A DNA stretch of 51,799 bases from Parabacteroides sp. (GTDB lineage: Bacteria; Bacteroidota; Bacteroidia; Bacteroidales; Tannerellaceae), in assembly GCA_017481945.1 (NCBI GenBank), contig JAFUOJ010000013.1, forward strand, positions 1 through 51,799. Direction: 5' to 3'. The notes below the pieces were generated by a model, which saw only the letters and a list, made by a program, of their open reading frames with translations, was not told where the DNA came from and did no database searches. Both the position numbers and the translations under genes were made by a program. Shown here piece by piece: positions 8,009 to 39,056 of the stretch. The first letter of the stretch is position 1. Each line of letters opens with the position of its first letter.

Positions 8009-8238
8009 ATAATGTTACTTTACATTATTGGAATTGAATCCTACAAAATAATAATGTAAGTTTACATTATAATGTTTTACCATTGCAATGTAATAATGTA
8101 GATTTACATTATGCCTTTGTATCCTTGCAAGTTGATAATGTAAGTTTACATTATGAGGTTGCACCTCTGCAAGTAGATAATGTAAAGTTACATTATGGAC
8201 TCGTACCACTGTAATGTGATAATGTAAGCTTACATTAT
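8009..8238. repeat. Palindrome array 1: six 20-bp palindromes at exact 42-bp pitch
   Basis: Units start at 8009, 8051, 8093, 8135, 8177 and 8219. Each is ATAATGTAA, two bases, TTACATTAT, or within one to three changes of it. The pitch is exactly 42 bp every time. The 22-bp spacers are only loosely alike; most carry TTGCAA or a variant near one end, and two hold short palindromes of their own (8155-8167, 8240-8251). A decayed seventh unit may lie at 8261. The array fills the gap between the end of the beta-barrel gene (8377) and the start of the MATE gene (7980). There are no cas genes, and the spacers are too similar and short for CRISPR. Confidence 0.93.
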
Positions 8239-8275
8239 GAGATTGCAATCTTGCGAGCTTATTTTGTAAATCAAA

Positions 8276-8349
8276 AAAACGACATTTCAATGGTGAAAAA
8301 TCATTTCCGCATTTCCGGAAACCTTTTTGCAACATTGAAATGTCGTTTT
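8276..8349. repeat. Long hairpin next to array 1, possible terminator of the TPR/barrel operon
   Basis: A 17-base arm at 8276-8292 (AAAACGACATTTCAATG) pairs perfectly with 8333-8349, with a 40-base loop that itself contains TTTCCGGAAA (8312-8321). It begins 38 bp beyond the last clear unit of array 1 and 27 bp after the beta-barrel gene stop in the direction of transcription. A/T tracts at both outer ends make it a plausible bidirectional terminator, but arms and loop are long for that; it may be an end element of the array. Confidence 0.6.
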
Positions 8350-8376
8350 ACAATTTTAGAGTGTCAAAAGATCCAA

Positions 8377-10128
8377 TTAGAAGTTGATATTTACACCGAC
8401 CATTGCGCTAAAGCTCTGCATAGGGTAGCCGTAATATAATTCATACTTCTGTCCCAATACATTGTTGAGCTTTAGGTAAGCGCCAAACGTATCATTGAAT
8501 GTGTACGTGCCGGTTAAGTTCAATTCATTGATGTTGTTCATATCGAAAACGCCTCCGGCTTCGCCCAAGTAGGCTTTACGACCGGTTGCTAAGTAATAAT
8601 CTAAGGAAGCAGAGACTTTTTGAATCGGTCGGACGGTAATTCCGGCTGTGATTTCCATCTCCGGCTTGCCGTAAGCCTCCTCAATATCGTCTACACTCCA
8701 ACTATTATAAACACCTTTCAGGTTTATGTCGAAAAGTTGTTGATAACTATACTTGAGATTCACCCCTCCGAAAGCCTTTTTAGCATCTGCCTGCAGTGTA
8801 GTCAGGCGAGAGAAAGCGCCGGACATAGAATTGTAGGTTGGAATGAAGAATACCTCATTGTTAGTGACTTGATAGCCCCCGAAAATGTCAAACCAGAAAC
8901 CCGGAGCGGCTCCACAGCGCAATCCAACGGTCGCGTCCAAGTAGTTTAAAGAGGGTAACAATTCAACAAAAGGCGCAGCGTAGCGGTTGATAACTGCTAA
9001 CGAGTGTAGACTGTTGGAATACATTTTACCGCCGGCGTTTAGATAGAGTTGAGTCTTGTCGGCAACCTCTACATCGGCAGCAATATTCGGTGAAGCCATG
9101 AATTCGCTCTCGTCGCCGGTTGAAAACATGACGTTCGCGCCTAAACGTACTTTCCAGTTGTCTCCATGTACCTTATAGTAGGGTGATAACATGATTTCGG
9201 CATGGTTTTGGAACTCCATAAGCTCCTCTCCGTTTGCCGTCGGCAGGCTATAATTGAAGTATTCGATGTTTCCACCGATACCAATTCGCTGTTCCCCATT
9301 GAAACGGGCGTTCAAATCGAACTTCACATCGAAAGTCTGTTCGGTAGCTCCGTCATACTCTTTGCTCAAAGCATATTTCTGAGAGAAATTGGTATATCCC
9401 AAATCCAACAGATAGCCGATAGGGGCTTCCTCTTTGGATTCGACACCGATTTTTGCCTGAATCGTCTGGTTAACCTGATTGGTCTCGCGGTCGTAACCGG
9501 CTAACTGCTCTTCGAACGTGTTGGACAGAACCGGATCAGCGATTGGCATGCCGTAATAGTTGAAAGCGGAGTAGCCATACTTGATACCCATGTCTAAAAT
9601 GGCCTTTTCAAAGACATGTTTGAAGTTTAAGCCACCCATATTGTCGTTTAGTTTGGCTTTGATCTTCTCAAGATCCGTATCAATGTATTTCACCTTTCCG
9701 TTGGTAGAGCGATGAGAGAACCAAAGGTTCAAATGATCCTTGTCGGTGCTTAAAATATGGTATCCCAAGTCGCCGTTCAAGTTCAGGTAAGTCCCTCCGC
9801 CGAAGTTGAAGTATCCTTTACGATGGTTATGCTGGATATCCGTCATGACATTGCCTGAAGGCAGGATACTGATCTCCTTTTCCGGGTCTGTAGGGACCGT
9901 ATAAGTAGCGTAGTCGATAGACATCTTTTTGACTTCCGGTTCTTTAATCACCGGAAGGGTATTGACCTTGCTTGCGTCCTGGACAGTCGGGTCGTATTCA
10001 CGCTCCAACGTCATTTCGCGGTTCAAGTTCTCTTTCTCCTTTTCTTTTGTCTCTTGTGCTTGGGCGGTCATTGTGCTTCCTAATAGCACTACAACACACA
10101 AAGCTTTGATTTTATCTACTGTTTTCAT
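8377..10128 (-). CDS. Outer-membrane beta-barrel (TonB-receptor-like) protein paired with a TPR protein
   Basis: 583 residues with a signal peptide ending in AQAQ, a charged linker (ETKEKEKENLNREMTLER), then many alternating amphipathic strands ending in Phe (SAMVGVNINF), which is the signature of an outer-membrane barrel. It has no plug domain or TonB box that I can recognise, so although such proteins are often annotated as TonB-dependent receptors it is not a classical one. It starts 9 bp after the stop of the 1000-residue TPR protein, with a purine-rich ribosome site (AAGAAGAAGAG) in between, so the two are an operon and probably act together in the envelope. Specific function unknown. 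Confidence 0.8.
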   Translation of the reverse strand: MKTVDKIKALCVVVLLGSTMTAQAQETKEKEKENLNREMTLEREYDPTVQDASKVNTLPVIKEPEVKKMSIDYATYTVPTDPEKEISILPSGNVMTDIQHNHRKGYFNFGGGTYLNLNGDLGYHILSTDKDHLNLWFSHRSTNGKVKYIDTDLEKIKAKLNDNMGGLNFKHVFEKAILDMGIKYGYSAFNYYGMPIADPVLSNTFEEQLAGYDRETNQVNQTIQAKIGVESKEEAPIGYLLDLGYTNFSQKYALSKEYDGATEQTFDVKFDLNARFNGEQRIGIGGNIEYFNYSLPTANGEELMEFQNHAEIMLSPYYKVHGDNWKVRLGANVMFSTGDESEFMASPNIAADVEVADKTQLYLNAGGKMYSNSLHSLAVINRYAAPFVELLPSLNYLDATVGLRCGAAPGFWFDIFGGYQVTNNEVFFIPTYNSMSGAFSRLTTLQADAKKAFGGVNLKYSYQQLFDINLKGVYNSWSVDDIEEAYGKPEMEITAGITVRPIQKVSASLDYYLATGRKAYLGEAGGVFDMNNINELNLTGTYTFNDTFGAYLKLNNVLGQKYELYYGYPMQSFSAMVGVNINF

Positions 10129-10137
10129 CTCTTCTTC

Positions 10138-13100
10138 TTAGTTCTTAAGTTTACCCAATCTGTTTTCAATCATAGCAGCAATGTCATCGTCCTCCTTGTA
10201 GTTGTTTTGCAAGCTTGTGAGGTATTGACGAGCTTGGAAGTCGTCTCCTTGACGGATATAGATGTCGGCAAGCAGGATGAAGCCGCGTGCTAACCAGTAT
10301 TGATGAGGCGTTCCGTTTTCAATGAAGTTCATCAATACCTTTTCAGCGTTCTTATCATCCTTATTGTCGTAGTACAATTGAGCTAACAGATATTTAGCCT
10401 CTGCTCCGTGTGCTGTACGGGTGTCTTGACTCAAGACTTTCAGGTCTGCCAGGGCTTTATTGGCCTGTTTCTGGTCGATATACGCTTTTGCGCGGACGTA
10501 ACGGGCTTCGGATTCGATTTCAGGAGAGAGCTTTGCCGTCTTTAATAAATCTTCTGCGGCTAAGAGCGCCTCTTTCTGCTGACCGGTTTGCAAAGCGCAG
10601 CGCATTACGCCTAAACGCGATGCCTGTTTGTTCTCCGGACTCTCGGCAACAATTTGCAGACGCTTGAAGCTTTCCAATGCAGCGGCGTAGTCTTTGTTCA
10701 AATATTCGATTTCAGCTGAACGCGCCACGGATTCCTCCATGTATTTGGTATCCCCGCTTGCAATCACGGCTTTAAAGCGTTGAAGTGCTTCGTCATATTC
10801 CTTTTGTGAGAATGCGATACTACCTAAATAGAAGTTGGCGTTGGAACTGAATGCCCCGTCGGGGAAAGTCTGCAAATAGTTGACTAAACTACGACGTGCT
10901 CCGGCATTATCGCCACGCATAAAGAGCTTTTCAGCCGCGATGTAGGTCAAAGAATCCTGTTCTCCAACCTCTAAGCGGATATTACCGCCTAAAGAGTTCA
11001 CGTAGTTTGCATAAGCGTTGATGTCATTGAGGTCGATATAAACCGATTTCAAGTCTTGCAAAGCCACTTTTGCCTCTTCACTGCCCGGATAGTTGTTGAT
11101 AACCTGTTTATAAGCTGTTAAAGCTTTCTCAGGTTGGTTATCATTGTAGTAAAGTAATCCTAATTGGATTCCGGCCTTACGAGCCAAGCTGCTTTGTGGG
11201 AATTCACTGATTAATTTCTCGAAAGACTGGGCTGCAGCCGAGCTGTTTTCCAACAGAACGTATGAACGTCCCTTTTCAAACAGTGCGTCATCCACATATT
11301 GAGACTCTGGATATTCGCGAATCAGACGATCCATTGCGTTGATCTTGCCTGTATAGTCTTTTTGTAGTCCTAACAAAAATCCTTTCTGATAAATAGAGTA
11401 ATCACTGGCAGATGGCAACAGCTGAGCGGCGTATGAATAGTTTTCTTCTGCTGAAGCGAACTGGCGATTCTGGTATAAGCAGTCACCGATACGGTTGTAA
11501 GCGTCTGCTAAAGAGGCTGCCTTTTGATTACTTTCCAGATCAACGTATTGGCGGAAGCGATTCAACGCTGCGTCATAATCTTTCAGCTTGAAGTAACTGT
11601 AACCTAAGTTATAGTAAGCCAAAGCATACATATCGGTGTTGCGTTGGCGGGTATTGTTCAGATAAGTCCGGTAGTCAGAGATGGCATTTTCATATTCGCC
11701 TTGACGATAGTAGGATTCACCGCGCCAGAAGTAGGCATCGTTGCGTGCTTCCATGTTGTAGGAACCTAACTTGATTGCCTGGCTGAGCAAATCCACCGCA
11801 TTGTCTAACTGCATGTTGGTGAAAGCCTGCGTACCGAGCTGGAACAAGATGTCTTGCTTCGCTTCTAAAATCTTTGTACTTGGATGTTTAATCTTATTGA
11901 TTGATTTCAGAGCGGCTTCGTAGTTCTTGGTTGTGAGATACACTTCGACTAAGTAGTCGTTTACTTTGTCGGCATACTGTGAATTGGGGAAATCGTTTAA
12001 GAAATCTTCAAAAATAGTTACCGATTCACCGAATCCGGTGAAGGCGGTCTCGTGGATTAACAATGCGTAGTTGTACATCGCCACCTCTTTGATTTGTTTG
12101 TCGAAAGAGGAGGTTGCAGCTGCTTCAAAAGCCATACGGGCATTGTTCTTGTCTTTTAATTTCAAATAAGATTGTCCCAAATAGAGGTAAGCATTTTGAG
12201 TCAAGGCGTCATTCTGGCGAACGGTCTTGCTCAAAGCATTCACAGCACTGCTGTATTTCCCTTTGTTATAGTAGCAGACACCTAAAATGTATAGGTCGCT
12301 ACGTAAAGGATTCTCTGTTGTAGAGACATATTTACTTAATAGTTGGAGTGCTTTGTCTTGATCTCCTAAATGGTAATAAGCGTCTCCGACAATACGGTAC
12401 ATCTCACTGTTATTTTCACTGTTGGGATAGAGAGAGAGAAGTTCTTCGCCCTCTTTCACAACCTTTTCATATTTATTCTGGATAAAATAAATCTGCGTGA
12501 TGTAGTATTGAGATTGTTCGCGGAATTCAGGATTGTCTTTCAAACGGGAGAATTCGATAAGTGCATTATTGTACTTCCCTAAGGCATAGTCGATATAAGC
12601 GACATAGTAAGTAGAGGCAGCTTTGTATTTATCTCCTACTTGTTCAATGCGGGCAAAATAACCACGAGCCTTTTCTAAATCTCCAGTCTGCAATAAAGAA
12701 TAGGCCAGGCGGAATGAGTAGGCCTCTTGTTGCTCCGGGCTTAAGACATCGATGTTTGAATCGTTGAACCAGAAGATTGCTTTCTCATATTCTCCACGCT
12801 CAAAGTGTACGGAGCCGATTAGGAATTTTACTTCATCGCTGTGGCGAGAAGTTGGATAGGCTTCTAAGTAATCTTTTAATAAAGCGTCAGTATTGGGACG
12901 TCCTTGTTCAAAGGCAGCGTAGACTAACATGTAGTCAGCCTCTTGAATTAAGTCTGCGTCGGTGGAATGCTGTTTGTAGGCTTCCAGTTTATCAATACAG
13001 TCCGCATAATTTTTTAAACTAAATAATTCTTTTCCTTCTACAAATAGGCGATTGGGTGCATCAAATTGGTACGACCGTTGCCCATTTGCGACATGACTAC

Positions 13101-13140
13101 CCACTACTATGCACAGTGGAATCAGTATTCTTTTCATCAC
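10138..13140 (-). CDS. Periplasmic tetratricopeptide-repeat protein, 1000 residues
   Basis: A signal peptide (MMKRILIPLCIVVGSHVANG) is followed by TPR-type helical pairs along essentially the whole length; typical units read Y..G..Y..A...F......P. The protein is therefore a long superhelical scaffold exported to the periplasm, where TPR proteins of this type hold partner proteins. It is the first gene of an operon with the downstream beta-barrel gene. A -7 element (TATCTTTG, minus strand, 13201-13208) lies about 60 bp upstream. There are no catalytic motifs. The role is inferred only from architecture and neighbour: assembly or support of an outer-membrane complex. Confidence 0.88.
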   Translation of the reverse strand: MMKRILIPLCIVVGSHVANGQRSYQFDAPNRLFVEGKELFSLKNYADCIDKLEAYKQHSTDADLIQEADYMLVYAAFEQGRPNTDALLKDYLEAYPTSRHSDEVKFLIGSVHFERGEYEKAIFWFNDSNIDVLSPEQQEAYSFRLAYSLLQTGDLEKARGYFARIEQVGDKYKAASTYYVAYIDYALGKYNNALIEFSRLKDNPEFREQSQYYITQIYFIQNKYEKVVKEGEELLSLYPNSENNSEMYRIVGDAYYHLGDQDKALQLLSKYVSTTENPLRSDLYILGVCYYNKGKYSSAVNALSKTVRQNDALTQNAYLYLGQSYLKLKDKNNARMAFEAAATSSFDKQIKEVAMYNYALLIHETAFTGFGESVTIFEDFLNDFPNSQYADKVNDYLVEVYLTTKNYEAALKSINKIKHPSTKILEAKQDILFQLGTQAFTNMQLDNAVDLLSQAIKLGSYNMEARNDAYFWRGESYYRQGEYENAISDYRTYLNNTRQRNTDMYALAYYNLGYSYFKLKDYDAALNRFRQYVDLESNQKAASLADAYNRIGDCLYQNRQFASAEENYSYAAQLLPSASDYSIYQKGFLLGLQKDYTGKINAMDRLIREYPESQYVDDALFEKGRSYVLLENSSAAAQSFEKLISEFPQSSLARKAGIQLGLLYYNDNQPEKALTAYKQVINNYPGSEEAKVALQDLKSVYIDLNDINAYANYVNSLGGNIRLEVGEQDSLTYIAAEKLFMRGDNAGARRSLVNYLQTFPDGAFSSNANFYLGSIAFSQKEYDEALQRFKAVIASGDTKYMEESVARSAEIEYLNKDYAAALESFKRLQIVAESPENKQASRLGVMRCALQTGQQKEALLAAEDLLKTAKLSPEIESEARYVRAKAYIDQKQANKALADLKVLSQDTRTAHGAEAKYLLAQLYYDNKDDKNAEKVLMNFIENGTPHQYWLARGFILLADIYIRQGDDFQARQYLTSLQNNYKEDDDIAAMIENRLGKLKN

Positions 13141-13200
13141 TCCTTAACTTTTATGATACAGATATATATAAATATAACGGTATATGTTGATTCTAAGTTG

Positions 13201-13208
13201 CAAAGATA
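13201..13208 (-). promoter_or_regulatory. -7 element upstream of the TPR/barrel operon
   Basis: TATCTTTG on the minus strand fits TAnnTTTG. No strong TTG is seen 19-20 bp upstream, so only the -7 half is supported. Confidence 0.5.
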
Positions 13209-13262
13209 AGAAATATATACTTTATGTTAAGAAAGAAAAGTAACCAAATGTTTAACATGCTA

Positions 13263-13784
13263 TTACTTTTGATGGCGGTACAAGGAAACGGCTTTTTTGA
13301 TGGATTGTAATCCGAAATCATCTGAGACTATCTGTTTAATAGGGAGGATTACAATTTCGGCTGCGTCATCTTCAGCCTTTGCTCCGATAAAAGAATCAGT
13401 CACACATTCAAAAAACATGTCTACTGTGTGTACGTCAAAGCCACAATAGGGATAGATGTTAGGAATAGAGAAGAGATAACGACAGTCTTTGATTTCTAAT
13501 CCGGTTTCCTCTTTTACTTCTCGGCGAGCAGCTTCTTCGGCTGTTTCATACATATCTACAAATCCTCCGGGTAGATCCAAGGTCCCTTTTGCCGGTTCTT
13601 TTGCCCGGCGTACAAGTAATAATTCTCCTTTTGTGTTTCGAATAAAACAGGCAACAGCAGAGGAGGGGTTGAAGTAGTAGACAAATCCGCAGTTGGTACA
13701 TCGTTTTGATTTTTCATTGTTTACGATAAAAGTTTGTGCTCCGCACTTCGGGCAGAAAGAAAATTGATGAAAAGGATGTGACAT
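13263..13784 (-). CDS. Nudix hydrolase with N-terminal zinc ribbon
   Basis: 173 residues. Cys11-x2-Cys14 and Cys29-x2-Cys32 form a zinc ribbon (CPKCG...CTNCG). A complete Nudix box follows at residues 74-96 (G-x5-E-x7-REVKEETGL), with all metal-binding glutamates present. Nudix enzymes cleave nucleoside diphosphates linked to another group; the ribbon plus Nudix layout resembles the NADH pyrophosphatase-like branch, but the diagnostic SQPWPFPQS-type motif is not seen, so the substrate is open. It stands alone between the TPR operon and the ROK kinase. Confidence 0.88.
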   Translation of the reverse strand: MSHPFHQFSFCPKCGAQTFIVNNEKSKRCTNCGFVYYFNPSSAVACFIRNTKGELLLVRRAKEPAKGTLDLPGGFVDMYETAEEAARREVKEETGLEIKDCRYLFSIPNIYPYCGFDVHTVDMFFECVTDSFIGAKAEDDAAEIVILPIKQIVSDDFGLQSIKKAVSLYRHQK

Positions 13785-13820
13785 AATGTGTGTTGATTTT
13801 TTGGCTGTTAGTAGATATAA

Positions 13821-13862
13821 AAATCCATCGCCGTGGAAATTAGAATCTATGGCGATGGATTT
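13821..13862. terminator. Terminator downstream of the ROK kinase gene
   Basis: AAATCCATCGCC at 13821-13832 pairs with GGCGATGGATTT at 13851-13862; on the minus strand the stem is followed by a T run. It lies just past the stop of the kinase gene. Confidence 0.8.
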
Positions 13863-13883
13863 GTTTTTTACTTCGAAGAAATT

Positions 13884-14843
13884 TTATTTTGCTTCCCAAC
13901 CTAATGCGCTTGCACCTAATACAGCTGCGTCGCTTTCTTTTAATTGAGAGAACAATAATTTAGTTTTTCCTGCGAAAATGTTCAACATGTTTTTGTCCAT
14001 TGCATGTTTGATCGGATTCATGATCAAATCACCTGCTTTAGTTAAACCACCGAACAAGATGATTGCTTCTGGGCTTGAGAATGCAACAAAGTCAGCAAAA
14101 GCTTCACCTAAAATGTTACCTGTAAATTCAAAGATTTCCTTAGCTAATGCGTCATCTTTCATGGCTGCGTCATACACGTCTTTAGATGTGATTTGGTCAG
14201 GATCTAATTCGCGTAATAAGCTGTCATCTTTGCGGATTTCCAAGAATTCACGTGCTGTACGAGCTACACCTGTAGCTGAAGCGTATGCTTCCAAACAACC
14301 TTGACGACCACAACCACATGGACGACCGTTGTTACGGCGCATGATTACGTGACCTAATTCACCAGCAAAACCGTCGTGACCATAAACTAAGTTACCGCCA
14401 ATAACGATACCGCTACCAACACCTGTTCCTAAAGTGATAACGATAAAGTCTTTCATACCACGTGCAGCACCATAAGTCATTTCACCGATAGCAGCAGCAT
14501 TTGCGTCGTTTGTCAAAGCAACTGGAACACCTACTTTCTCGCTGATTAATTGTGCCAATGGAACTTTATGTTTCCAAGGTAAGTTGGGTGCAAATTCAAT
14601 ACATCCGTTGAAGAAGTTTCCGTTAGGAGCTCCAACACCAATACCTTTAATCATTTCAGTTCCACCTGCCTGGTCAATAACTGACATTAAACCATTTGCT
14701 AAAGCAGCAACATAATCATCAATTTCAGTGTATTTACCTGTCTTGATTGAACCACTATACAAGATTGTACCTCTTGCATCTACTACGCCGAAAACAGTAT
14801 TGGTACCACCTATATCAATACCTACTACATAAGGCTTCTCCAT
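13884..14843 (-). CDS. ROK-family sugar kinase (glucokinase-like)
   Basis: 319 residues from the ATG at 14843. A longer in-frame start exists at 14909 but would translate through the promoter, so MEKPYVVGIDIGG is preferred. Motifs: ATP-binding DIGGTN at residues 10-15, catalytic Asp in TNDANA (Asp113), and the ROK zinc site with His165 and Cys176, Cys178 and Cys183 in CGCGRQGCLE. ROK kinases phosphorylate glucose or related hexoses in the cytoplasm. There is no helix-turn-helix domain, so this is an enzyme and not a NagC-type repressor. It would feed sugars freed by the GH3/GH97/GH13 hydrolases of this region into glycolysis. Confidence 0.92.
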   Translation of the reverse strand: MEKPYVVGIDIGGTNTVFGVVDARGTILYSGSIKTGKYTEIDDYVAALANGLMSVIDQAGGTEMIKGIGVGAPNGNFFNGCIEFAPNLPWKHKVPLAQLISEKVGVPVALTNDANAAAIGEMTYGAARGMKDFIVITLGTGVGSGIVIGGNLVYGHDGFAGELGHVIMRRNNGRPCGCGRQGCLEAYASATGVARTAREFLEIRKDDSLLRELDPDQITSKDVYDAAMKDDALAKEIFEFTGNILGEAFADFVAFSSPEAIILFGGLTKAGDLIMNPIKHAMDKNMLNIFAGKTKLLFSQLKESDAAVLGASALGWEAK

Positions 14844-14886
14844 GATTTTATATTTTAGATTAATAATGAAAATCGTTACTGGAAAG

Positions 14887-14916
14887 CAAATATAGGATGA
14901 ATCTGCCAAGCCACAA
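14887..14916 (-). promoter_or_regulatory. Predicted promoter of the ROK kinase gene
   Basis: On the minus strand TTG (14914-14916), 19 bases, then TATATTTG (14887-14894). It lies inside the extended reading frame of the kinase, which argues for the shorter start at 14843. Confidence 0.7.
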
Positions 14917-14968
14917 TGATTTTATTGAAAAAAAACCGAAATAGACGTGAATATGTTTGCTTTATATG

Positions 14969-15346
14969 TTATTTAGCAGGTAATATTTCAATCCAATAAT
15001 CGTCTGGATCATTGATAAAGTATAACCCCATCTCTTTATTTTCAAAACAGACATAGCCTAATTCACGATGATATTCTCTTATGGCGTCATAGTCTCCTGC
15101 AACACGAAAACAAAGGTGACTTTCATTGTCTCCTAATTCGTAAGCTTCTTGTCGGTCGCGTAACCAAGTAAGTTCTAATAAAAAGCCTGTTTCGTTGTCT
15201 GTTAAATAGACCAATGTGAATGAGCCGTCAGCTGCTTCTTTCCGATGGTGTTCTTTCAAACCTAATGCTTTATTATAAAAAGCGATACTTTTTTCTAAAT
15301 CTAAAACGTTGACGTTAAAGTGATCGAATTTACTTTTTATTTCCAT
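14969..15346 (-). CDS. VOC-superfamily glyoxalase-like protein
   Basis: 125 residues with one vicinal-oxygen-chelate fold made of two beta-alpha-beta-beta-beta modules. The four metal-ligand positions of glyoxalase I are present: His9, Glu58, His77 and Glu120 (HFNVN, LLELTW, SHLCF, YWIEIL). This fits a lactoylglutathione-lyase-like enzyme, although Bacteroidales make little glutathione and the real substrate may differ. It follows the MBL-fold gene by 31 bp on the same strand and may share its transcript, making a small detoxification pair. Confidence 0.87.
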   Translation of the reverse strand: MEIKSKFDHFNVNVLDLEKSIAFYNKALGLKEHHRKEAADGSFTLVYLTDNETGFLLELTWLRDRQEAYELGDNESHLCFRVAGDYDAIREYHRELGYVCFENKEMGLYFINDPDDYWIEILPAK

Positions 15347-15377
15347 GATGAAATTTATGATTTATAAAGATGATAAT

Positions 15378-16100: not shown

Positions 16101-16153
16101 TTTCCTTGTCTCCTTCTTTGTCTTTAAAACAGAGAATTTCTTCTCTTGTTTCA

Positions 16154-17512: not shown

Positions 17513-17514
17513 AG

Positions 17515-27815: not shown

Positions 27816-28117
27816 TTCTACCTTATAGAATCTTTTAAAAACCTGTTTCTTGTGCTTTCTACATGATAGAATCCTTGAGAAACCTGTTTTTTGTGTTTTC
27901 TACAGAGTAGAATTTATAATTGTTGACATTCTGGCGTTTTCTATGTTGTAGAATTAATAAATATTTACGTTTTACTCTTTTCTACATTGTAGAATTAACA
28001 GAAATTGGTTTTCTCATGTTTTCTACGATGTAGAATCCATAATTTACATGTTTTGGAAGCTTTCTACAAAGTAGAATCTGTTATCAACATCAATTGTATC
28101 ATTTCTATGGAGTAGAA
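27816..28117. repeat. Palindrome array 2: eight 15-bp palindromes at exact 41-bp pitch
   Basis: Units start at 27816, 27857, 27898, 27939, 27980, 28021, 28062 and 28103. Each is TTCTAC, three variable bases, GTAGAA, with at most one or two changes (first two units end ATAGAA; fourth and eighth begin TTCTAT). The pitch is exactly 41 bp in all seven steps. The 26-bp spacers are AT-rich and far less alike than the units. The array fills most of the 561-bp divergent gap between the small secreted gene and the DUF6261-like gene. A shorter out-of-phase palindrome TTCTATAGAA-like (TTCCTATAGAA) lies at 28152-28162. Confidence 0.95.
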
Positions 28118-28204: not shown

Positions 28205-28212
28205 TATCTTTG
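28205..28212 (+). promoter_or_regulatory. -7 element of the DUF6261-like gene
   Basis: TATCTTTG fits TAnnTTTG; a weak -33 match (TTTC, 28183-28186) lies 18 bp upstream. The start codon follows 53 bp downstream, leaving a leader of about 45 bases that holds a 21-bp palindrome. Confidence 0.6.
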
Positions 28213-28265: not shown

Positions 28266-29087
28266 ATGAAAAAAATTACGAATGTGAGTTTTTTATTGGG
28301 TAGGAATTCAGAATACTACCTAATGTGTCAAAACATGAGTTCGCAAATTACCACAGAATTTGCAGAAAAGTTTAAAATTACACAGGTGTACCAACCTTAT
28401 GTAGAACTGGTTAACAGAGTGAAAGATGTTTATCTTCAAAACCAACAATTTGCCAATACCAAAGCGTTGAATGAAGCTGAAGCCTTAAGTAACAGTTACT
28501 TTTCTACGTTTAAATCCATGTTAAGTAGTTATAAGAATTGGCCGGATGCGGAGAAGCAAACCGCGTATGAGTCAATTTATTATGTTGCGAAACCTTACTG
28601 GAAAGCTTATGCAAAACCCATTGCGGAAAACATCGCAATGCAGATGGATTTAATTTCCTCATTACGTGCTGATAATATGAAGGATTCAGTCACTTTATTG
28701 GGACTGGATACGATTGTGAACGAGATGGAATCGGCAATAATCTCTTGTAACAATTATTATGTAGCACGTGCAGATGAACGGTTGGCCCGCGCTTTAGCCG
28801 ATAAGATGAAGGACTTACGTAAACAGACTGACACAGCCTTTAAGCAATTGGCAGAGGTAATTTCAGCTCTTTTTGTGGTGAATAGCATTGTGACCAAAGA
28901 AACGGAGAAGGTCGCAGAGTTGGAGGCGATGATTGATGGAATCAATGCTGTTCTGTTGGAGTACACGGTGGCAATTTCTCGTAGAGGAAGAGGAGCTAAA
29001 GCGGACGTTGATCCGGGAACACCGCTCCCTGACTCAGAAAATACCGAAACGGATTCGGACGAGGATGAAATGCCGGATGAATTATAA
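28266..29087 (+). CDS. DUF6261-like all-helical protein beside palindrome array 2
   Basis: 273 residues, cytoplasmic (no signal peptide or membrane helix). The predicted fold is almost wholly helical: segments near 30-80, 85-130, 145-190 and 195-230 have heptad-like spacing (for example KMKDLRKQTDTAFKQLAEVI). It ends in a basic patch (SRRGRGAKAD) and a very acidic tail (ENTETDSDEDEMPDEL). From memory this resembles the Bacteroidota-only family DUF6261, which has no known function; a profile search would settle it. It has its own promoter and a dyad in its leader related to the array units. No enzyme motif is visible. The link to the array is inferred from position and shared palindrome sequence. 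Confidence 0.7.
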   Translation: MKKITNVSFLLGRNSEYYLMCQNMSSQITTEFAEKFKITQVYQPYVELVNRVKDVYLQNQQFANTKALNEAEALSNSYFSTFKSMLSSYKNWPDAEKQTAYESIYYVAKPYWKAYAKPIAENIAMQMDLISSLRADNMKDSVTLLGLDTIVNEMESAIISCNNYYVARADERLARALADKMKDLRKQTDTAFKQLAEVISALFVVNSIVTKETEKVAELEAMIDGINAVLLEYTVAISRRGRGAKADVDPGTPLPDSENTETDSDEDEMPDEL

Positions 29088-30047: not shown

Positions 30048-30052
30048 AATGG

Positions 30053-30898: not shown

Positions 30899-30900
30899 GT

Positions 30901-31788: not shown

Positions 31789-31790
31789 AG

Positions 31791-32759
31791 TTACTCGTCC
31801 GTTCCGATTAGATCAAGTGAGGCTTGGATTTTCTCTTTAGAGATACCGATGTAACCTGCCGGAATATTTTTCTCCTGTCCTTTGCTCAATACATATTTTA
31901 AAAATGCTTTGATTACGGGATTAGTCGGTACTCCTTTTGTCACTAAATAGAGATCACGTGCTGGAGGAGAAGGGTATTTACCTTCGGCAATAGCTGTGAT
32001 TAATTCATCTTTGGTGTCGTAAAATTTCTCGTCAGGTGTGATGACACCATCGTTGTTACTATCGATAGGAAGGACTAAAATGCCGGCATTCGGTTTATGC
32101 GTATCATTGTCGTATGCGTAACCTATATTATTCAATCCGATACCGTAGATGTCTTTTTGTACTGCGGTGGCAACACCCGGATCTCCAAATACGGCTGTTC
32201 CTCCTAAATCTTCCTGTTTTTTATCCAGCCATTTGGCCCATGTTTCAGCGGCTCCGCAAGCGTCTGAACGAGTATAGGCATGTAGTGGAGTTTTATCCTC
32301 TGTCCCTAATACATCTCCCCAAGTAGTGGCTTCACCTGTGATCCAAATTTTAATAGCGGCTTCGCGAGAAAGTCCTTTGGATAATAATTCGTTCAATTTG
32401 GGATTGTTGGCATTGATTGTCGGAGCGACTGCGTCTTTGGCAACAGCAAATCCAACGGCTCCCTTTTCCTTCTCGGGTGGGTAAATTTCTCGTGAGACCA
32501 TTCCGAGATCGACTACTCCGGCAAGTGCGTCAGTCATTCCTTTCCCTGCACCTCCTGCAGAGACATCAATGCGGACTCCGGGATGTAGTTGTTGAAACTC
32601 TTCGGCCCATTGGATTGCCAATGGATAAAGGGCAAAGGCTCCTGAAAGAGATAGTTCTCCACTTAATTCTCCCTCTTTTGTTTCACGCTTTCCGCCACAA
32701 GAGATAGTGACGATGGCAACCATTACCAAGAAAAGCGAAATCTTAAAAAATCGATTCAT
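31791..32759 (-). CDS. pstS: Periplasmic phosphate-binding lipoprotein
   Basis: 322 residues with a lipoprotein signal (Cys21 in TISCGG). The mature part begins with the phosphate-site motif LSGAFALYPLAIQWAEEF, where Ser and backbone groups bind phosphate, and has SAGGAGKGM (about 67-75), the second phosphate loop. It captures phosphate and hands it to PstCA. It lies 20 bp after the porin gene. Confidence 0.94.
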   Translation of the reverse strand: MNRFFKISLFLVMVAIVTISCGGKRETKEGELSGELSLSGAFALYPLAIQWAEEFQQLHPGVRIDVSAGGAGKGMTDALAGVVDLGMVSREIYPPEKEKGAVGFAVAKDAVAPTINANNPKLNELLSKGLSREAAIKIWITGEATTWGDVLGTEDKTPLHAYTRSDACGAAETWAKWLDKKQEDLGGTAVFGDPGVATAVQKDIYGIGLNNIGYAYDNDTHKPNAGILVLPIDSNNDGVITPDEKFYDTKDELITAIAEGKYPSPPARDLYLVTKGVPTNPVIKAFLKYVLSKGQEKNIPAGYIGISKEKIQASLDLIGTDE

Positions 32760-32779
32760 AACTCAGTCTTTTATTTTAT

Positions 32780-33805
32780 TTAAAACATTGCAAAAAATTG
32801 AAGAGCCAGAAGATGGCTGGATTTACTGGCTTCTACATCTTTATAGGTGTAGTTTACAACCAATCGTAGCGCTTTAATCGGGTAGTAATTCAGCCCGACT
32901 AAATAATCATATTCACGTGTTTGACTGTTGGATTTGTCTTCCTGAAAATAGTCAAACTTAACAACGGGTTGTATTTTGGAATGGACGAAGTAGCTTACTA
33001 CTGCGTAAGCTCCTTCGCTTTTCAGAGTACCTGTCTTTCCATATAAATATTCACTTCTTATTAAAAGGTGTTTGTCTTGCCATTTGATACCGGCACCGTA
33101 GCGGTCTCTATCTTTTTCTTCTCCCTGTTTACCGTATTTACCAAGGTAGCATGAGCCGGCTAAAGAGAGATTCTTACATGGATGAAGGGTAAGTATGCCT
33201 GAGAAATCTTTGTTTTTGTTGTTGTCTTTTAGATTGATTCCGTTACCGTTGAACACCCCGAAAGCATAGTCGAGAAGGTTGTAATCTCCTCGTTTGATCA
33301 AACTTCCGTATAAAGTAATACCTATGTCTCGACCGTTAGCTGAAAGCCCTGACAGGTCAGAGTAATTACATAATTTAGATATACCCATTGAATTTTCTAT
33401 GGTCTCTAAAGTGTGCGGACCGTAGGGATTTTCCAGTGAAAAGGGAATTTTGTATTCTCCGGCTTGGACTGCGATGTAGGGATGGATTTTGTATCGGATA
33501 TAAGCGTCCAGTATTTTGGGTGAATTTACGAACTCAATCTGTAAGCGATAGTCCAATTGAGAGGAAAGATCTCCTTTAAAATCTACTCGGGCTCTACGAA
33601 TGTCAAAACTATGCGAATCATCTGCGGATGAGTACTGGTATCTCATGTTGATGAAGCCCGATATTTTGGGCAGTTTAGAAATAATCTTTTCTAAAGTGGA
33701 TACGCGGGATTCAATAGGGGTAGAGTTAGTTACGACTGAATCCTCTTGTGCTTTTGTAGTGTAAATTGCTGTACAAAAGCAAAATAGAAGCAATAAATTT
33801 TTCAT
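32780..33805 (-). CDS. OprO/OprP-like phosphate-selective porin
   Basis: 341 residues with a signal peptide (ends TKAQ), a short coiled-coil start (ESRVSTLEKIISKL) that in this family can trimerise, and then the typical SFDIRRARVDFKGDL and RLQIEFVNSPKILDAY strands of phosphate-selective porins O and P. It forms the outer-membrane pore and is the first gene of the porin-pstSCAB operon, which supports a phosphate role. A strong promoter match lies just upstream. Confidence 0.92.
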   Translation of the reverse strand: MKNLLLLFCFCTAIYTTKAQEDSVVTNSTPIESRVSTLEKIISKLPKISGFINMRYQYSSADDSHSFDIRRARVDFKGDLSSQLDYRLQIEFVNSPKILDAYIRYKIHPYIAVQAGEYKIPFSLENPYGPHTLETIENSMGISKLCNYSDLSGLSANGRDIGITLYGSLIKRGDYNLLDYAFGVFNGNGINLKDNNKNKDFSGILTLHPCKNLSLAGSCYLGKYGKQGEEKDRDRYGAGIKWQDKHLLIRSEYLYGKTGTLKSEGAYAVVSYFVHSKIQPVVKFDYFQEDKSNSQTREYDYLVGLNYYPIKALRLVVNYTYKDVEASKSSHLLALQFFAMF

Positions 33806-33835
33806 TTTTTCTGTTTATAATTCAAAACTACACTG

Positions 33836-33865
33836 CAAAGGTAGAGATTTAAAAAGTATTTACAA
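33836..33865 (-). promoter_or_regulatory. Predicted promoter of the porin-pstSCAB operon
   Basis: On the minus strand TTG (33863-33865), 19 bases, TACCTTTG (33836-33843). The octamers ACTACACT (33827-33834) and its complement AGTGTAGT (33896-33903) flank it. Confidence 0.72.
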
Positions 33866-33883
33866 GAAATATACTAATTTAAT

Positions 33884-33902
33884 CTACATCTTTTTAGTGT
33901 AG
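33884..33902. promoter_or_regulatory. Candidate operator between the pst operon and the Rrf2 gene
   Basis: CTACA (33884-33888) and TGTAG (33898-33902) form a dyad centred about 50 bp upstream of the pst promoter -7 box and on the path to the Rrf2 gene. It could bind the Rrf2 regulator or a phosphate regulator. Short arms keep confidence low. Confidence 0.35.
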
Positions 33903-33964
33903 TATTTGTTTGGTTAGTATTATTTAATACAAATGAAAAAGCAAAAAGTATATTGGAAAAATGT

Positions 33965-33972
33965 TATCTTTG
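33965..33972 (+). promoter_or_regulatory. -7 element of the Rrf2 gene
   Basis: TATCTTTG, 28 bp before the chosen Rrf2 start. It lies inside the longer in-frame reading starting at 33953, which argues against that longer start. Confidence 0.6.
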
Positions 33973-34000
33973 TGTCAAAACAATCTATTTAATAAAAGAT

Positions 34001-34441
34001 ATGCTCACAAGGAAAACACGTTATGCCATGATGGCCCTTTCTATTCTTGCTGGTCAATATCAGAAAGGTATTGTTACAATAGGGCAGATTGCCGACAGAG
34101 AGCAAATTCCTCAGCGTTTTTTGGAAGGAATATTATTGAAACTGAAAAATGCAGGTATATTAGAGAGTACTCGTGGTAAAGTAGGAGGATACTATCTTGT
34201 AAAAGATCCCAAAGAAGTTACTCTGTTTGATATTGTCTCTATTTTTGAAACATCTGTGAGTCTTTTGGCGTGTGTCTGTCGGGAAAATTACAAATCTTGC
34301 GAGTTTTGTAAAGATGAAAGTATTTGTCCGATTCGTAAGCCCTTTGCTGAAATCTATAAATTGACGATTGAGGTTTTACGACGTACGACTTTGTTTGATT
34401 TGACCACAGAAGAGGTTTTAGATATATCAAATCTTAAATAG
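34001..34441 (+). CDS. Rrf2-family transcription regulator
   Basis: 146 residues from ATG at 34001 (MLTRKTRYAMMALSILA, the usual Rrf2 start). The winged helix-turn-helix (QIADREQIPQRFLEGILLKLKNAG, residues 29-52, then STRGKVGGYYL) is clear. Five cysteines at about 91, 93, 100, 103 and 109 lie where family members bind an Fe-S cluster. Such regulators sense iron-sulfur status, nitric oxide or redox state. It is divergent from the phosphate-uptake operon, sharing a 195-bp gap, so it may regulate itself and perhaps pst; the latter would be unusual. Confidence 0.88.
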   Translation: MLTRKTRYAMMALSILAGQYQKGIVTIGQIADREQIPQRFLEGILLKLKNAGILESTRGKVGGYYLVKDPKEVTLFDIVSIFETSVSLLACVCRENYKSCEFCKDESICPIRKPFAEIYKLTIEVLRRTTLFDLTTEEVLDISNLK

Positions 34442-34478
34442 ATGAAGGTCGGCTTTCAGGGATAAGAGATTGAATGAA

Positions 34479-35389
34479 TTATAATGAACGATTTATTCTA
34501 TGAAATACAAAATGAATCTTTAATAAAAGCGAAGAACATAAGTCAATATGAGAATAAGTAATGAAATCATTATTTTCTGGTAACTTCAAAATCCCATTAT
34601 TAAATAAATCAACATTTAAATTATGAGTAGACTTTTGTAAAACCACTAAAGGAGATATACCATTTTTAGTTATAGAAAAGAGAGTATCATTAGTCGGAAT
34701 ATTTACAAGATATTTATCTTTTGTATTACTCCTGTTACACATTAAAGAAAAACCTGCCTTCCCTTTTATAGTTAATACTGTATCAAAAGAGAAATATTTA
34801 TTGACAATCTCTAAATCTTTATTTATCTGATAAATATAATCTGTTCCATTACCACCTTGATTAGTAAAAAATTACCATCTTCATCTATCATTGAAATTGT
34901 TCTTCCAATTATGTCTTTTACATTTTTCTCTTGTACAAATTCCCCATTTAATTTGTAGGTTAGAATTTTTTTATTTCCACTGTCATATATCCAAATTGTA
35001 GAATCTAATTTACTATAGTGAACACTACTCAAATATTTATACTCTCCAGGTCCCTGTCCCACTTTTTGAATTAGAACCTTTAACTCTCCATTTTTATCAT
35101 AACAATTAATACTCTGAGTTTGAGATTCGCTTACAAGAATTAAATTCTCATTCAAAAATTCAATTTTAGGAGCACGCCCTAATATTGATTTAGAACTGAG
35201 TGGTACTAAATGAGTTGATTTCGCTATACTGTTCCATGTGAAAGTATCTAAAACAGAAGCAGAAAGGTTTTCTGCAATATTAAAAGTTGATACTAACTCA
35301 CTGTTTTTCTCTATAACTTCTACAGTAACAGTTTTCTGTGTACAGCCTATAATAAAGCATACCAAGGATAATAAAAGATACTTCCTCAT
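34479..35389 (-). pseudogene. Frameshifted 6-bladed beta-propeller lipoprotein gene
   Basis: The 5' part (35389 to about 34866) encodes a lipoprotein signal (FIIGCTQ) and propeller strands with the family hallmark VGQGPGEYKYLSSVH. The frame is lost at the six-A tract 34866-34871 and then runs into a stop at 34823. One extra base in that tract would join it to the downstream frame (...NQGGNGTDYIYQ...) which runs to 34479, giving about 303 residues. That is shorter than the usual near-400, so the 3' end may also be lost. It follows the SGNH gene by 20 bp. It could be a true pseudogene, a phase-variable gene or a sequencing error. Confidence 0.78.
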
Positions 35390-35409
35390 AAATCATTAAC
35401 ATTAAATAA

Positions 35410-36219
35410 TTACTCAAAATCTGCAGGAAAAGCTAATAACTGATACATCAAAGCTTTTGCCATACGATAATGTCCTTCTGCATTAGGATGTAAACGATCT
35501 TTCACTTCATTAGCAAAGTAACGAGTATGAGAGTCATACATAGGGAAAAGCCCACAAACGCTATTCAAATCAATCACAGGAACCGCCCAAACATTAGCTG
35601 CCTCCTTTATAGCCTCCACATATTCATCAATATACAAACCTATCCGATTCGGATAAGATTCTTCTGGTTGTATATTCTTCTGCCCAAATTTAGCATACGC
35701 ACGATGAATCGGAGTTAATACTATCACCTGCTTTGTTGGATAATTCATTTTCAAATAAGATAAAACTTGATTGATACGTCCACGAAGCGTTGCATTTTCC
35801 ATCTGAAAATATCTTCTTCTCCGTACCTCTTTAGTGGGTCCCGACACTTCTACCGAATCATATTTTATCGTGTACCATTCACCTAAAGGTACATTCCCAT
35901 AAAAATCATTTGTTCCTGCAAAAATGAGAATCGCGTCAACATCATCTCCGCGTTCCGCTTTCAGTTTTTCTGCCTGTCCTAAAATATCCACCCACTGATG
36001 TCCATTCTTTCCATAAACCAATGGTTCAATACCCAACAATTCATATAGGAACTCCCAATAATTTTTTGTTGTCCCTACATGCCTTTCATCAGTGATAGAA
36101 TCACCTAAATAAGCAACCTTTTTTCCGTACCACTGATTACGCACTGTACCCTCTTGTGCATAAACTTGTATTGAGCTCCAAAAAGTCACTACCACAAAAA
36201 TCAAATTACGAAAATTCAT
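35410..36219 (-). CDS. Secreted SGNH/GDSL-family hydrolase
   Basis: 269 residues with a signal peptide (ends VYAQ). The four SGNH blocks are present: GDSIT (Ser41), a Gly in block II (near KNGHQW), AGTND (Asn104) and DRLHPN (Asp241, His244). These enzymes deacylate esters, in Bacteroidales often acetyl groups on glycans. It is the first gene of a transcript with the broken propeller gene and has a strong promoter match upstream. Confidence 0.9.
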   Translation of the reverse strand: MNFRNLIFVVVTFWSSIQVYAQEGTVRNQWYGKKVAYLGDSITDERHVGTTKNYWEFLYELLGIEPLVYGKNGHQWVDILGQAEKLKAERGDDVDAILIFAGTNDFYGNVPLGEWYTIKYDSVEVSGPTKEVRRRRYFQMENATLRGRINQVLSYLKMNYPTKQVIVLTPIHRAYAKFGQKNIQPEESYPNRIGLYIDEYVEAIKEAANVWAVPVIDLNSVCGLFPMYDSHTRYFANEVKDRLHPNAEGHYRMAKALMYQLLAFPADFE

Positions 36220-36249
36220 ATCTTCATCTATTAATGATAACTAATTATA

Positions 36250-36281
36250 CAAAATTAGACATATCAGCGAAACCGTCCAAA
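36250..36281 (-). promoter_or_regulatory. Predicted promoter of the SGNH hydrolase gene
   Basis: On the minus strand TTTG (36278-36281), 20 bases, TAATTTTG (36250-36257), about 31 bp before the start codon. Confidence 0.72.
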
Positions 36282-36314
36282 GTCTTCCTTTTATTTTAAT
36301 TAAAAATTTTACAG

Positions 36315-36322
36315 TACCTTTG
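36315..36322 (+). promoter_or_regulatory. -7 element of mnmA
   Basis: TACCTTTG, 26 bp before the mnmA start. The -33 half is not evident. Confidence 0.5.
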
Positions 36323-36347
36323 TCTCATTCTTATTCACTATTGAAAT

Positions 36348-37424
36348 ATGGAAATTGCAGCGTTAGTTTCAGGAGGAGTAGATAGCTCCGTAGTCGTTCA
36401 TCAGTTAAAAGAGGCGGGATATGATCCTACTATTTTCTATATCCGAATCGGAATGGAAGATAAAGATGGATATATTGACTGTCCTGCAGAAGAAGATATT
36501 GAGATCACGACTTATATAGCAAAAAAGTATGGATGTCGATTAGAAATTGTTTCTCTACACGATGAATATTGGGATCGCGTAGTTAGTTATACAATTGATT
36601 CCGTTAAACGTGGATTGACACCCAATCCAGATATGATGTGTAACAAATACATCAAGTTTGGTTGTTTCGAGGAAAAATGGGGAAAAGACTTTGATAAAAT
36701 AGCAACAGGACACTACGCTACAACAACCGAAATAGATGGTAAAGTATGGCTCTCAACAGCTAAAGATCCTGTAAAAGATCAAACTGACTTCTTAGGACAA
36801 ATTACCCGTTTACAAATACAGAAGCTGATGTTTCCCATTGGGCATCTGATGAAAAGTGAAGTACGTGCTATCGCTGAACAACAGAAATTACCCAGTGCCA
36901 AACGAAAGGACAGCCAAGGAATTTGTTTCTTAGGTAAGATTAATTATAATGACTTCATCGAACGTTATTTAGGTAAACGCACAGGAAAAATCGTTGAGTT
37001 AGAAACTGGTAAAGTTTTAGGAAAACACAATGGATATTGGTTTCATACCATTGGCCAACGCAAAGGTTTAGGTTTAAGCGGCGGTCCTTGGTTTGTCATC
37101 AAAAAGGATATCAGACGAAACATTATTTATGTTTCTAATGGATATGACCCAGAAACACAATACGGTAAAACAATCAATATGCAAGGATTCGATTTTATCA
37201 CTGAGGACCCTTGGGGAGAATTTACAGATGAGAAAGAGATCACATTCAAAATCCGCCATACTCCAGAGTTTACCCACGGATACATTCGTCGAATAGGAGA
37301 TTTATATCGGATCGAGTCAGACAACAAGATTCAAGGTATTGCTCCCGGACAATATGGTGTAGTTTATGATAAAGACCACCATCTCTGTCTCGGTAGCGGT
37401 ATGATTATTGATGAGACAAAATAA
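36348..37424 (+). CDS. mnmA: tRNA-specific 2-thiouridylase
   Basis: 358 residues. The ATP PP-loop SGGVDSS is at residues 8-14. The two catalytic cysteines are Cys98 ([12 protein letters not shown]) and Cys193 (DSQGICFLG). The enzyme adds sulfur to U34 of Lys, Glu and Gln tRNAs. The region after the PP-loop carries a short acidic segment ([17 protein letters not shown]), a variant seen in the second MnmA-type copy that many Bacteroidales carry; whether another copy exists here is not visible. It is monocistronic with a terminator. Confidence 0.94.
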
Positions 37425-37433
37425 AAATCCAAT

Positions 37434-37488
37434 AAAAAGTCTCTTTAGATTAACTTTTACAAAAGAGAAAACCTAAAGAGACCTTTTT
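37434..37488. terminator. Bidirectional terminator between mnmA and the second propeller gene
   Basis: AAAAAGTCTCTTTAG (37434-37448) pairs with CTAAAGAGACCTTTTT (37474-37488, approximately), with A/T tracts at both ends. It touches the stop codon of the minus-strand propeller gene. Confidence 0.82.
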
Positions 37489-38733
37489 ATTTCCACTTCA
37501 ATATGCCTACAACTTCATTATCGTCATATTTCAATTTATTTGCCATACTTTTAAAAACCGAACTTTTTCCCGTATTTATTTTGTGGTCCTTTATTTTTTC
37601 TGCTGACCAATAAGAACATAATCCATTTTCCCCATATACTTGACTATATGGACTTACAGCCAATCCTCCATCCAAATCATTTATAAATATTCCATCATCA
37701 CATTGAAAAGACATACTATTTGCATCTTTTTTTGAATAAAGTAATTCATATAATGTTACTTTCGATGTTGGTTTCGTTATTACCGAACGATATCTTACAA
37801 TTAGTTCATTATCTGTCTCCATTATACCAGTAATAGACCATGTTAAAAAATCACGACTTAAAAAACCTACCTTAAACTGCTCTTTGGTTATTTTTAAATC
37901 CTCACAATTTATATAACCAATAGGAGTTACCTTAAAATGTTCATTTATCGAGTAAATGGAATCTGTTAGATAATCATAATATCGGATTTCATTTTTATAC
38001 TTCCAAAATACATTTTCTCCCAATGCCAAAGTCTTAAATTGATCACTTTTAATATGTCTACAATCCTCTATAGACTTCAAATTTGTAAAAGCTGAAGAAC
38101 GGCGCTTCGCAATAATCTCTCCCGAGTCAATGTTCAGCACATAATAATCATCATAACCACCCTTTAAAGAAGCAGAACGAGCTATTAACAAATTTCCCTT
38201 ACCGGCAGATATCAATTTTACATCACTTTTACAAGGTATGCTCTTTTATACATCGTGTCATAACCAACAATATGAATTACCCCCTTCCCTGAATCATACA
38301 CATAACATTCTTCTCGCTCATCATCAACAGCAATAGAAAACATAAATAGATATTCTTGAGGCCCTTGCCCTTGATTCATTACATTTCCTATAAAGTGTCC
38401 ATCTTTACGATCAAAAAGTTTCATATCATCTATTATCACTTTTGAGCTTACTGTAAAACCTTTTAATCGCTTTCCTCCACCAATAAGAGATTTATCAGTT
38501 GTTTCCAATGGAACATATTCAATACTCTGAAAAAAGTCACTTAGTTTAAGTTGTCCTTTCTGAGCTTTTTTCATCTCTTTGAACAGATCAATCCGGAAAA
38601 ATGGTTCAGACGCTTGCCCTAAGACTTCACTTTGGATAGAATCTGTTTCGTTTTCTATCGAAACAGCGACTTCTTTCTGTCTGTTACTGCAAGAAATACA
38701 GAGTAGCAATATTAATGCATAAAGTTTATTCAT
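37487..38733 (-). pseudogene. Frameshifted 6-bladed beta-propeller lipoprotein gene, second copy
   Basis: The 5' part (38733-38218, 171 residues) has a lipoprotein signal (LLCISCSN), the region LSDFFQSIEYVPLETT typical of these propellers, and the hallmark NQGQGPQEYLF. It ends in a stop at 38218. The downstream frame (to 37487) continues without a break in sense (...KSDVKLISAGKGNLLIARSA...) if one base is added in the four-T tract 38227-38230 (plus strand). The restored protein would be about 415 residues, a normal length. These secreted propellers are common in Bacteroidales and poorly understood. It has its own promoter, immediately followed upstream by array 3. Confidence 0.8.
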
Positions 38734-38782
38734 AATACCTATTATTATTAATTAAAACGCCTTCTATATATCATATCCATAA

Positions 38783-38813
38783 CAAAAATAAATAACTTTT
38801 TCACTAACAACAA
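38783..38813 (-). promoter_or_regulatory. Predicted promoter of the second propeller gene
   Basis: On the minus strand TTG (38811-38813), 20 bases, TATTTTTG (38783-38790). Palindrome array 3 begins 24 bp further upstream, so the array sits where activator or repressor sites would be. Confidence 0.65.
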
Positions 38814-38836
38814 GGTAATTACAAAAAAGGGAAACA

Positions 38837-39056
38837 AGAATGCTCCAATCTGCCATCACTACGTTTCTCGTGATAGCAGATTGGAGCATTCTTGGGTCTA
38901 TATATTTTTAGAGAGGCAAGAATGGGGCATTCTACTATCAAAATTTTCTTAGTGATACAAGAATGCTGCATTCTGAAGCCAAAACAATTGAAAAGAAAAA
39001 AGAATGCCGCATTCTCGCGTCCCTACAATTAAAGAGAGAGGAGAATGCTGCATTCT
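38837..39056. repeat. Palindrome array 3: six 15-bp palindromes at exact 41-bp pitch
   Basis: Units start at 38837, 38878, 38919, 38960, 39001 and 39042. The last three are perfect AGAATGC, one base, GCATTCT; the third is AGAATGGGGCATTCT. The first two (AGAATGCTCCAATCT and AGATTGGAGCATTCT) are exact complements of each other, and with their spacer form a 25-bp inverted repeat (38835-38859 with 38870-38894, one mismatch, 10-base loop). Spacers are 26 bp and diverged. The array lies between the propeller promoter and the end of glnN. Confidence 0.95.

Follow-up and report, generated by a model that had tools for sequence, protein, structure and literature searches.

What binds or generates a string of palindromes set exactly 41 or 42 bp apart? 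This question was raised by three arrays in a contig of Parabacteroides sp. (GCA_017481945.1, contig JAFUOJ010000013.1; genome 83% complete), of which positions 1 to 51,799 form the whole stretch analyzed here, hereafter the window. The positions given for the arrays by an earlier sequence-only reading were confirmed, with exact pitches of 42 bp for array 1 and 41 bp for arrays 2 and 3. Array 1 (8009..8238) consists of six 20-bp dyads of the form ATAATGTAA..TTACATTAT that start at 8009, 8051, 8093, 8135, 8177 and 8219, with a weaker dyad of the TTGCA..TGCAA type at half pitch. Array 2 (27816..28117) holds eight 15-bp dyads TTCTACnnnGTAGAA, the first at 27816 and the last at 28103, and four of the eight carry one arm mismatch. 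Array 3 (38919..39056) had been described as six 15-bp dyads, of which four are clean (AGAATG..CATTCT type, starting at 38919, 38960, 39001 and 39042), while the first two lattice places are occupied by one long hairpin (38837..38893). None of these features is assigned to a strand. All three arrays are intergenic, as had been claimed, an overlapping open reading frame (ORF; 8015-8335) at array 1 being taken as spurious; array 1 is located before a MatE gene and array 3 downstream of glutamine synthetase III. On balance, we favor the reading that arrays with a pitch of 40-42 bp are recognition tracks of DUF6261 proteins: the genes are found paired with such arrays, and we infer that their products bind the arrays and act through them.

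Array 2 is followed by a DUF6261 gene on the plus strand (28266..29087; PF19775, E 2.6e-21), which starts 149 bp beyond the array and encodes a protein of 273 aa with the C-terminal tail MPDEL, the proposed binder of the TTCTAC palindrome of array 2. The window protein had matches in 25 of 38 genus genomes, with 7 in its own genome and up to 26 per genome. A hidden Markov model (HMM) search of the fetched sequences identified 12 DUF6261 genes, two of which (L170 and L212) had been fetched via array searches, and 11 of the 12 had a 40-42-bp array or tandem repeat within 420 bp upstream, that of L124 being weak. Three of four further DUF6261 genes of the own genome also had an upstream array, so that a 40-42-bp array stood directly upstream of 14 of 16 DUF6261 genes overall and of six of seven in the own genome. 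Pfam confirmed the family assignment for the window gene and ten others. With automatic gene starts, an array was found within 400 bp for 8 of 10 DUF6261 genes versus 34 of 1152 other genes (p 6e-11), where one of the two DUF6261 misses (L137) was a mis-called start. A Bacteroidales stretch retrieved by the TTCTAC pattern alone (L170) carried a DUF6261 gene directly beside its array. Most DUF6261 genes examined stand directly behind an array of their own palindrome, and this palindrome differs from copy to copy within one genome. Some palindromes recur between species, namely TTCCAG in this genome and in G020, and TTTCCGGA on contig C17 and in G020. The proposal of a family of array-specific DNA-binding factors thereby gains circumstantial support from the genes behind the arrays and the copy-specific palindromes; that DUF6261 is the dyad-binding protein is what we infer from the linkage. 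No role of DUF6261 was found in the open-access literature, where the name surfaced only in an unrelated context.

Several palindromes are shared between an array at a DUF6261 gene and arrays elsewhere. The TTACATTA palindrome forms the array in cis to the DUF6261 gene of contig C15 (C15:21572-21760, directly before the gene) and recurs in window array 1 and in a second relative on the same contig (C15:49734-49958). TTCCAG forms the cis array of the C29 DUF6261 gene, a paralogue with 62% identity to the window gene, and recurs at C16 and C7, and the TTCTAC dyad forms three arrays of the own genome with a 41-bp pitch (the window, C5 and C6) in addition to two single dyads on C13. The AGAATG set occupies four loci (array 3, C4, C6 and C17), and a partner gene for array 3 was not found in this genome, which is 83% complete. 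In the proposed mechanism, each DUF6261 paralogue would bind its own palindrome track, both at its own gene and at dispersed sites, such that array 2 would be the cis array of the window gene and array 1 a trans site of the C15 gene. One dimer would sit on each dyad, and adjacent dimers about two or four helical turns apart would touch and build an ordered complex along the array. Binding at the own gene might give feedback control; at the dispersed arrays, of which array 1 in front of the MatE gene is one, it might give coordinated control or local DNA organization.

The conservation within these arrays bears on this mechanism. Array 2 and its copy on C6 could be aligned over 299 bp with no indel, and changes were found at 5 of 90 arm, 35 of 186 spacer and 10 of 23 loop positions (arms versus spacers, p 0.003; arms versus loops, p 3e-5); the divergence of spacers at a fixed pitch noted in the sequence-only reading is therefore real. 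Because arms are conserved, loops and spacers are freer and no indel occurs, a dimer on each dyad with touching neighbors would be the simplest account. Arrays were found in tandem, divergent and convergent intergenic regions, and DNA organization is therefore as open as regulation; convergent gaps held 8 of 28 classed arrays, with two more unclassed, against 64 of 392 among gaps of at least 100 bp.

The TTCTAC pattern was also followed outside the genome. A search of 58 relatives for TTCTAC pairs with gaps of 12-42 found none, and among 84,980 species' genomes 20 stretches had the pattern, four of them Bacteroidales, all at 41 bp. In the 16 non-Bacteroidales stretches the distance was 28-32 bp in 14, and 43 and 49 in the remaining two. 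Acidobacterial, actinobacterial and gammaproteobacterial records (L160, L162, L163, L169, L171 and L179) contained TTCTACnnnGTAGAA pairs at a distance of 30-32 bp, which are possibly operators of an unrelated regulator. Viral contigs gave one match to the pair pattern, at 30 bp.

The copying of whole arrays also raises the alternative of mobile palindromic elements, in which non-autonomous arrays are spread in trans by the product of a linked gene, in the way proposed for REPINs and RAYT transposases, DUF6261 being the mobility factor and the hairpin dyads its substrate. Paralogous whole-array copies with sharp edges, namely the 299 bp of array 2 and C6 and five copies of a 23-bp element, fit this alternative, as do three array sites (array 1, array 3 and C5) that are empty in the closest species and the 38 of 47 arrays of the 40-42-bp class that lack an adjoining gene. 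A gene with adjoining palindromes and further dispersed palindromes is, moreover, the REPIN-RAYT layout as given in PMC3116915. However, a Y1 transposase match was absent from this genome (83% complete), the only invariant columns in twelve DUF6261 sequences were M1 and N227, unlike a catalytic site, and the arms were kept after copying while the spacers drifted, unlike dead transposon copies. Target-site duplication was not established. We consider the mobile-element account unlikely.

G023, the closest species, shows synteny at the positions of array 1 and the C5 array, with no array at either; none follows its glutamine synthetase gene, where the neighbor differs. G030 has no array at the C5 and glutamine synthetase sites. 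The window DUF6261 query had no match in G023 or G030. Contig C1 of G023 is colinear with the window from ~4.8 to 26.9 kb, after which the 49.7-51.0 kb part is inverted next to glutamine synthetase; the difference in order is a rearrangement involving window positions 27-39 kb and 49.7-51.0 kb, and with them the region of array 2. An origin of the arrays on plasmids or phages was rejected, as tblastn gave no DUF6261 match in either collection, the array 2 region was unmatched in plasmids and viral contigs yielded no relative in a protein scan. The idea that arrays were orphaned by loss of their DUF6261 genes was rejected in the case of C6, whose array stops near the end of the next gene.

The frequency of such arrays was evaluated with a scan that required at least three dyads of similar arms to recur at one exact pitch, the pitch being varied between 15 and 150 bp in steps of half a base. 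The scan covered 662,499 bases of the own genome (the window and stretches that had not been selected for arrays) and, in relatives, 1,098,614 bases, with the stretches of two relatives, G001 and G002, masked. In this 1.76 Mb, 55 arrays with many different palindromes were detected, 18 in the own genome and 37 in relatives, a density that is not a fair genus mean because arrays were the reason for choosing the window and for extending the G009, G020 and G025 stretches, whose first samples had shown them; selection was not by pitch. The same scan on one first-order Markov shuffle per sequence gave 0 arrays, and exact-pitch arrays are thus above chance, while 267,841 bases from 20 genomes of other families in the order gave 0 dyad arrays and, by Tandem Repeats Finder, a few repeats of 20-24 bp.

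The pitches of the 55 arrays fell into two main classes, 21-23 bp in 26 and 40-42 bp in 27, with one array each at 66 and 82 bp; a stricter scan setting additionally gave one array at a pitch of 46 bp. The expectation of a pitch that is always 41-42 bp must be broadened to a lattice of ~20.5-23 bp, which shows itself as pitches of 21-23 or 40-42 bp. Many array spacers contained a second dyad at half the pitch (20.5-21 bp), and from these dyads and the related 21-23-bp arrays we conclude that the lattice is about two helical turns, with 41-42 bp being twice that. The suggestion that every dyad lies on one DNA face would be compatible with a pitch of 41 or 42 bp but not with one of 23 bp, which loses phase.

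Regular repeats outside the dyad arrays are common in the genus. With rows overlapping dyad arrays excluded, Tandem Repeats Finder gave 61 repeats of period 20-26, 16 of period 39-48, 8 of period 82-85, 3 others of period at least 69 and 40 of period 10-19. The first two groups would be expected if the arrays had a mutational origin only, that is, if hairpin-assisted slippage in repeat-rich intergenic DNA had produced them and quasi-palindrome correction had made them symmetric, with no function. From such an origin, however, one would not expect linkage to a single gene family, palindromes specific to each copy, recurrence of one palindrome at distant loci or arm conservation between paralogous arrays, and we regard it as improbable.

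A further alternative is that the arrays act in transcripts as strings of RNA hairpins, forming structures in the leader or at the 3' end that influence termination or stability, in line with the repeatedly hairpinned transcript envisaged by the sequence-only reading. As RNA, the arrays fold better than shuffles (z -2.9 to -10.95), and both the TTCCAG set, in its outer arms, and the long hairpin show paired changes. This hairpin, with an RNA fold of -35 kcal/mol and the z of -10.95, has a counterpart in L011 (contig C6) in which the stem sequence is altered, and it may act as terminator for glutamine synthetase; a T-rich run on the minus strand after it was noted by eye. Promoters were considered through a -7-like box of the pattern TAnnTTTG, which follows the Bacteroides promoter consensus. 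In the window, this box (TATCTTTG, 28205..28212, plus strand) lies between array 2 and the start of the DUF6261 gene, and the array is likewise upstream of the box in L170, whereas the box is upstream of the array in C17, G020a and G025c, as the transcript account would have it. The C5 and C16 arrays, on the other hand, are located between two converging hairpins judged terminator-like by eye, and since arrays occur there and on either side of the promoter-like box, a role in transcripts became less likely despite the better-than-shuffled folding. Mismatches of the wobble type and of the A-C type were also about equally frequent (109 and 134; 112 and 106; strands not oriented), paired changes were not in excess among 130 pooled dyads, and hairpin strings have no need of an exact pitch. 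We therefore give the transcript account little credence. Rfam covariance models at the gathering score had 0 matches in the window, and a tRNA scan of the window found none.

Returning to DUF6261 proteins as binders of the 40-42-bp tracks, gene and array also co-occur across genomes. The density of 40-42-bp arrays correlated with DUF6261 copy number (rho 0.71, p 4e-4, 20 genomes), and the six genomes lacking a DUF6261 match (227 kb) held 0 such arrays versus 46 in the fifteen with a match (1530 kb), many of the genome samples in this comparison being small.

A number of observations weigh against this reading. The 21-23-bp arrays rise likewise with DUF6261 number (rho 0.65; 4 without a match, 48 with), and part of the correlation may therefore reflect general repeat richness. 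Proteins that are more alike do have half-sites that are more alike, in favor of the reading, but the correlation was weak (Mantel r 0.29, p 0.015) for 13 of the 16 DUF6261 genes, C41 having been dropped for want of an array and two other genes for want of a clear dyad. Two of the 16 genes, C41 of the own genome and L135 in G009, have no array. Conversely, only 9 of the 47 arrays in the sample with a pitch of 40-42 bp or twice that adjoin a DUF6261 gene, and for most of the other 38 a cognate gene was not established; within the window, array 2 alone has the gene directly downstream, and arrays 1 and 3 have no adjoining DUF6261 gene. The AGAATG set, including array 3, had no DUF6261 neighbor at its four loci in the stretches examined, and only one of the four Bacteroidales stretches with TTCTAC arrays had the gene. 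DUF6261 has no recognizable DNA-binding domain, its profile matches being near chance and none of its relatives solved. Symmetry beyond the conserved arms showed no excess over shuffles when the 130 dyads were pooled. Finally, the position of the -7-like box relative to the array varies, and self-control, if real, may therefore differ between DUF6261 copies.

A link to HU-family proteins came from the C-termini and from the 21-23-bp arrays. The tail P[DEA]E[LI] was carried by six of the seven own-genome DUF6261 proteins and, among 645 own ORFs, by nine in total, namely these six and three HU-family proteins, four of the nine having been fetched as DUF6261; some HU-type proteins of the genome are without it. 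In the G025, G009 and G020 stretches, a GIP[NH]P tail was found in two DUF6261 proteins and one HU-HIG protein of G025 and in no other ORF. Neither tail is present in the DUF6261 proteins of G020, G009 and L170 or in two of the four from G025. That the two families have a C-terminal tail in common strongly hints at DUF6261 acting together with DNA-binding proteins, and suggests a common partner. Among the genes that adjoin 21-23-bp arrays, a recurring group of three is HU-HIG by Pfam, and other recurring groups encode large outer-membrane and glycosidase-like proteins. At L142:6374-6943, L146:10786-11478 and L122:9339-10073, 21-23-bp repeats precede HU-HIG genes. A 20-24-bp repeat was found upstream of 5 of 14 HU-type genes, or of 3 of 11 without the three that had been fetched through the 23-bp element. 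This element of TCTACTTAnTAAGTAGA dyads with a 23-bp pitch (L021:12560-12710) has five copies in the own genome (C10, C13, C7, C26 and C20) and is matched in 13 of the 38 genus genomes, own included, and its dyads are less variable than its linkers. As a tentative and rather doubtful extension, many paralogous DUF6261 proteins might form a chromosomal system, co-diversify with their private exact-pitch tracks, spread the tracks to new intergenic sites and, together with HU-family proteins, dock via a species-specific C-terminal tail onto one shared machine that organizes, silences or partitions DNA.

For DUF6261, a family without a known role, the arrays provide a concrete candidate ligand, with several natural specificity variants per genome available for comparison. 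If the binding is true, these would be pairs of proteins and DNA sites on bacterial chromosomes that diversify jointly and in which DNA recognition has changed repeatedly, with a possible tie to the HU-family expansions of Bacteroidetes.

We then compared the arrays with known systems. The sequence-only reading knew of no named system with these features, and none was found in the open-access literature, though an earlier mention of repeats in HU-family work is possible. Clustered regularly interspaced short palindromic repeats (CRISPR) resemble the arrays in their regular repeats and varied spacers but were rejected, since the whole unit of 41 bp is too short, the spacers are homologous between arrays with their own dyads and the neighbor of array 2 is not a Cas gene by Pfam. 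The HU-HIG and other HU-family expansions of Bacteroidetes were reportedly described by Burroughs et al. in 2017; these are DNA-binding proteins of the same genomes, some with 21-23-bp arrays upstream and some with the same C-terminal tail, but none of the 14 HU-type genes has a 40-42-bp array. DUF6261 shows no detectable relationship to them: the tested members matched only PF19775 above its cut-off and not an HU fold, and hhalign of DUF6261 against HU aligned only 29 columns near the C-terminus with a probability of 38% and no HU domain.

The nearest system in layout and pitch is the sopC centromere of plasmid F, in which a palindrome in each of the 43-bp tandem repeats is bound by dimeric SopB; here, too, tandem palindromes recur near four helical turns. 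That system, however, is plasmid-borne and has a single palindrome and a single protein, whereas many palindromes and paralogues are found here on chromosome-like contigs; the gene linked to the array is DUF6261 rather than ParA or ParB, and ten DUF6261 proteins had no match to ParB in Pfam at E 0.1. In the REPIN-RAYT system (PMC3116915, PMC3733652), a gene has its own adjoining palindromes, several such pairs occur in some genomes, and the same palindromes are dispersed intergenically. The TTCTAC, TTACATTA and TTCCAG sets are alike in that the same palindrome stands beside a gene and is dispersed. Membership in REP/RAYT was nevertheless rejected, as PF01797 (Y1) had no match in the genome (83% complete) and the neighbor of array 2 is DUF6261. 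REPINs are mainly inverted doublets, whereas the partner here is DUF6261 and up to eight dyads follow in tandem at exactly 41-42 bp. The arrays in front of DUF6261 genes and their counterparts elsewhere in some Bacteroidales genomes point to an undescribed arrangement in which proteins are paired with DNA tracks of their own.

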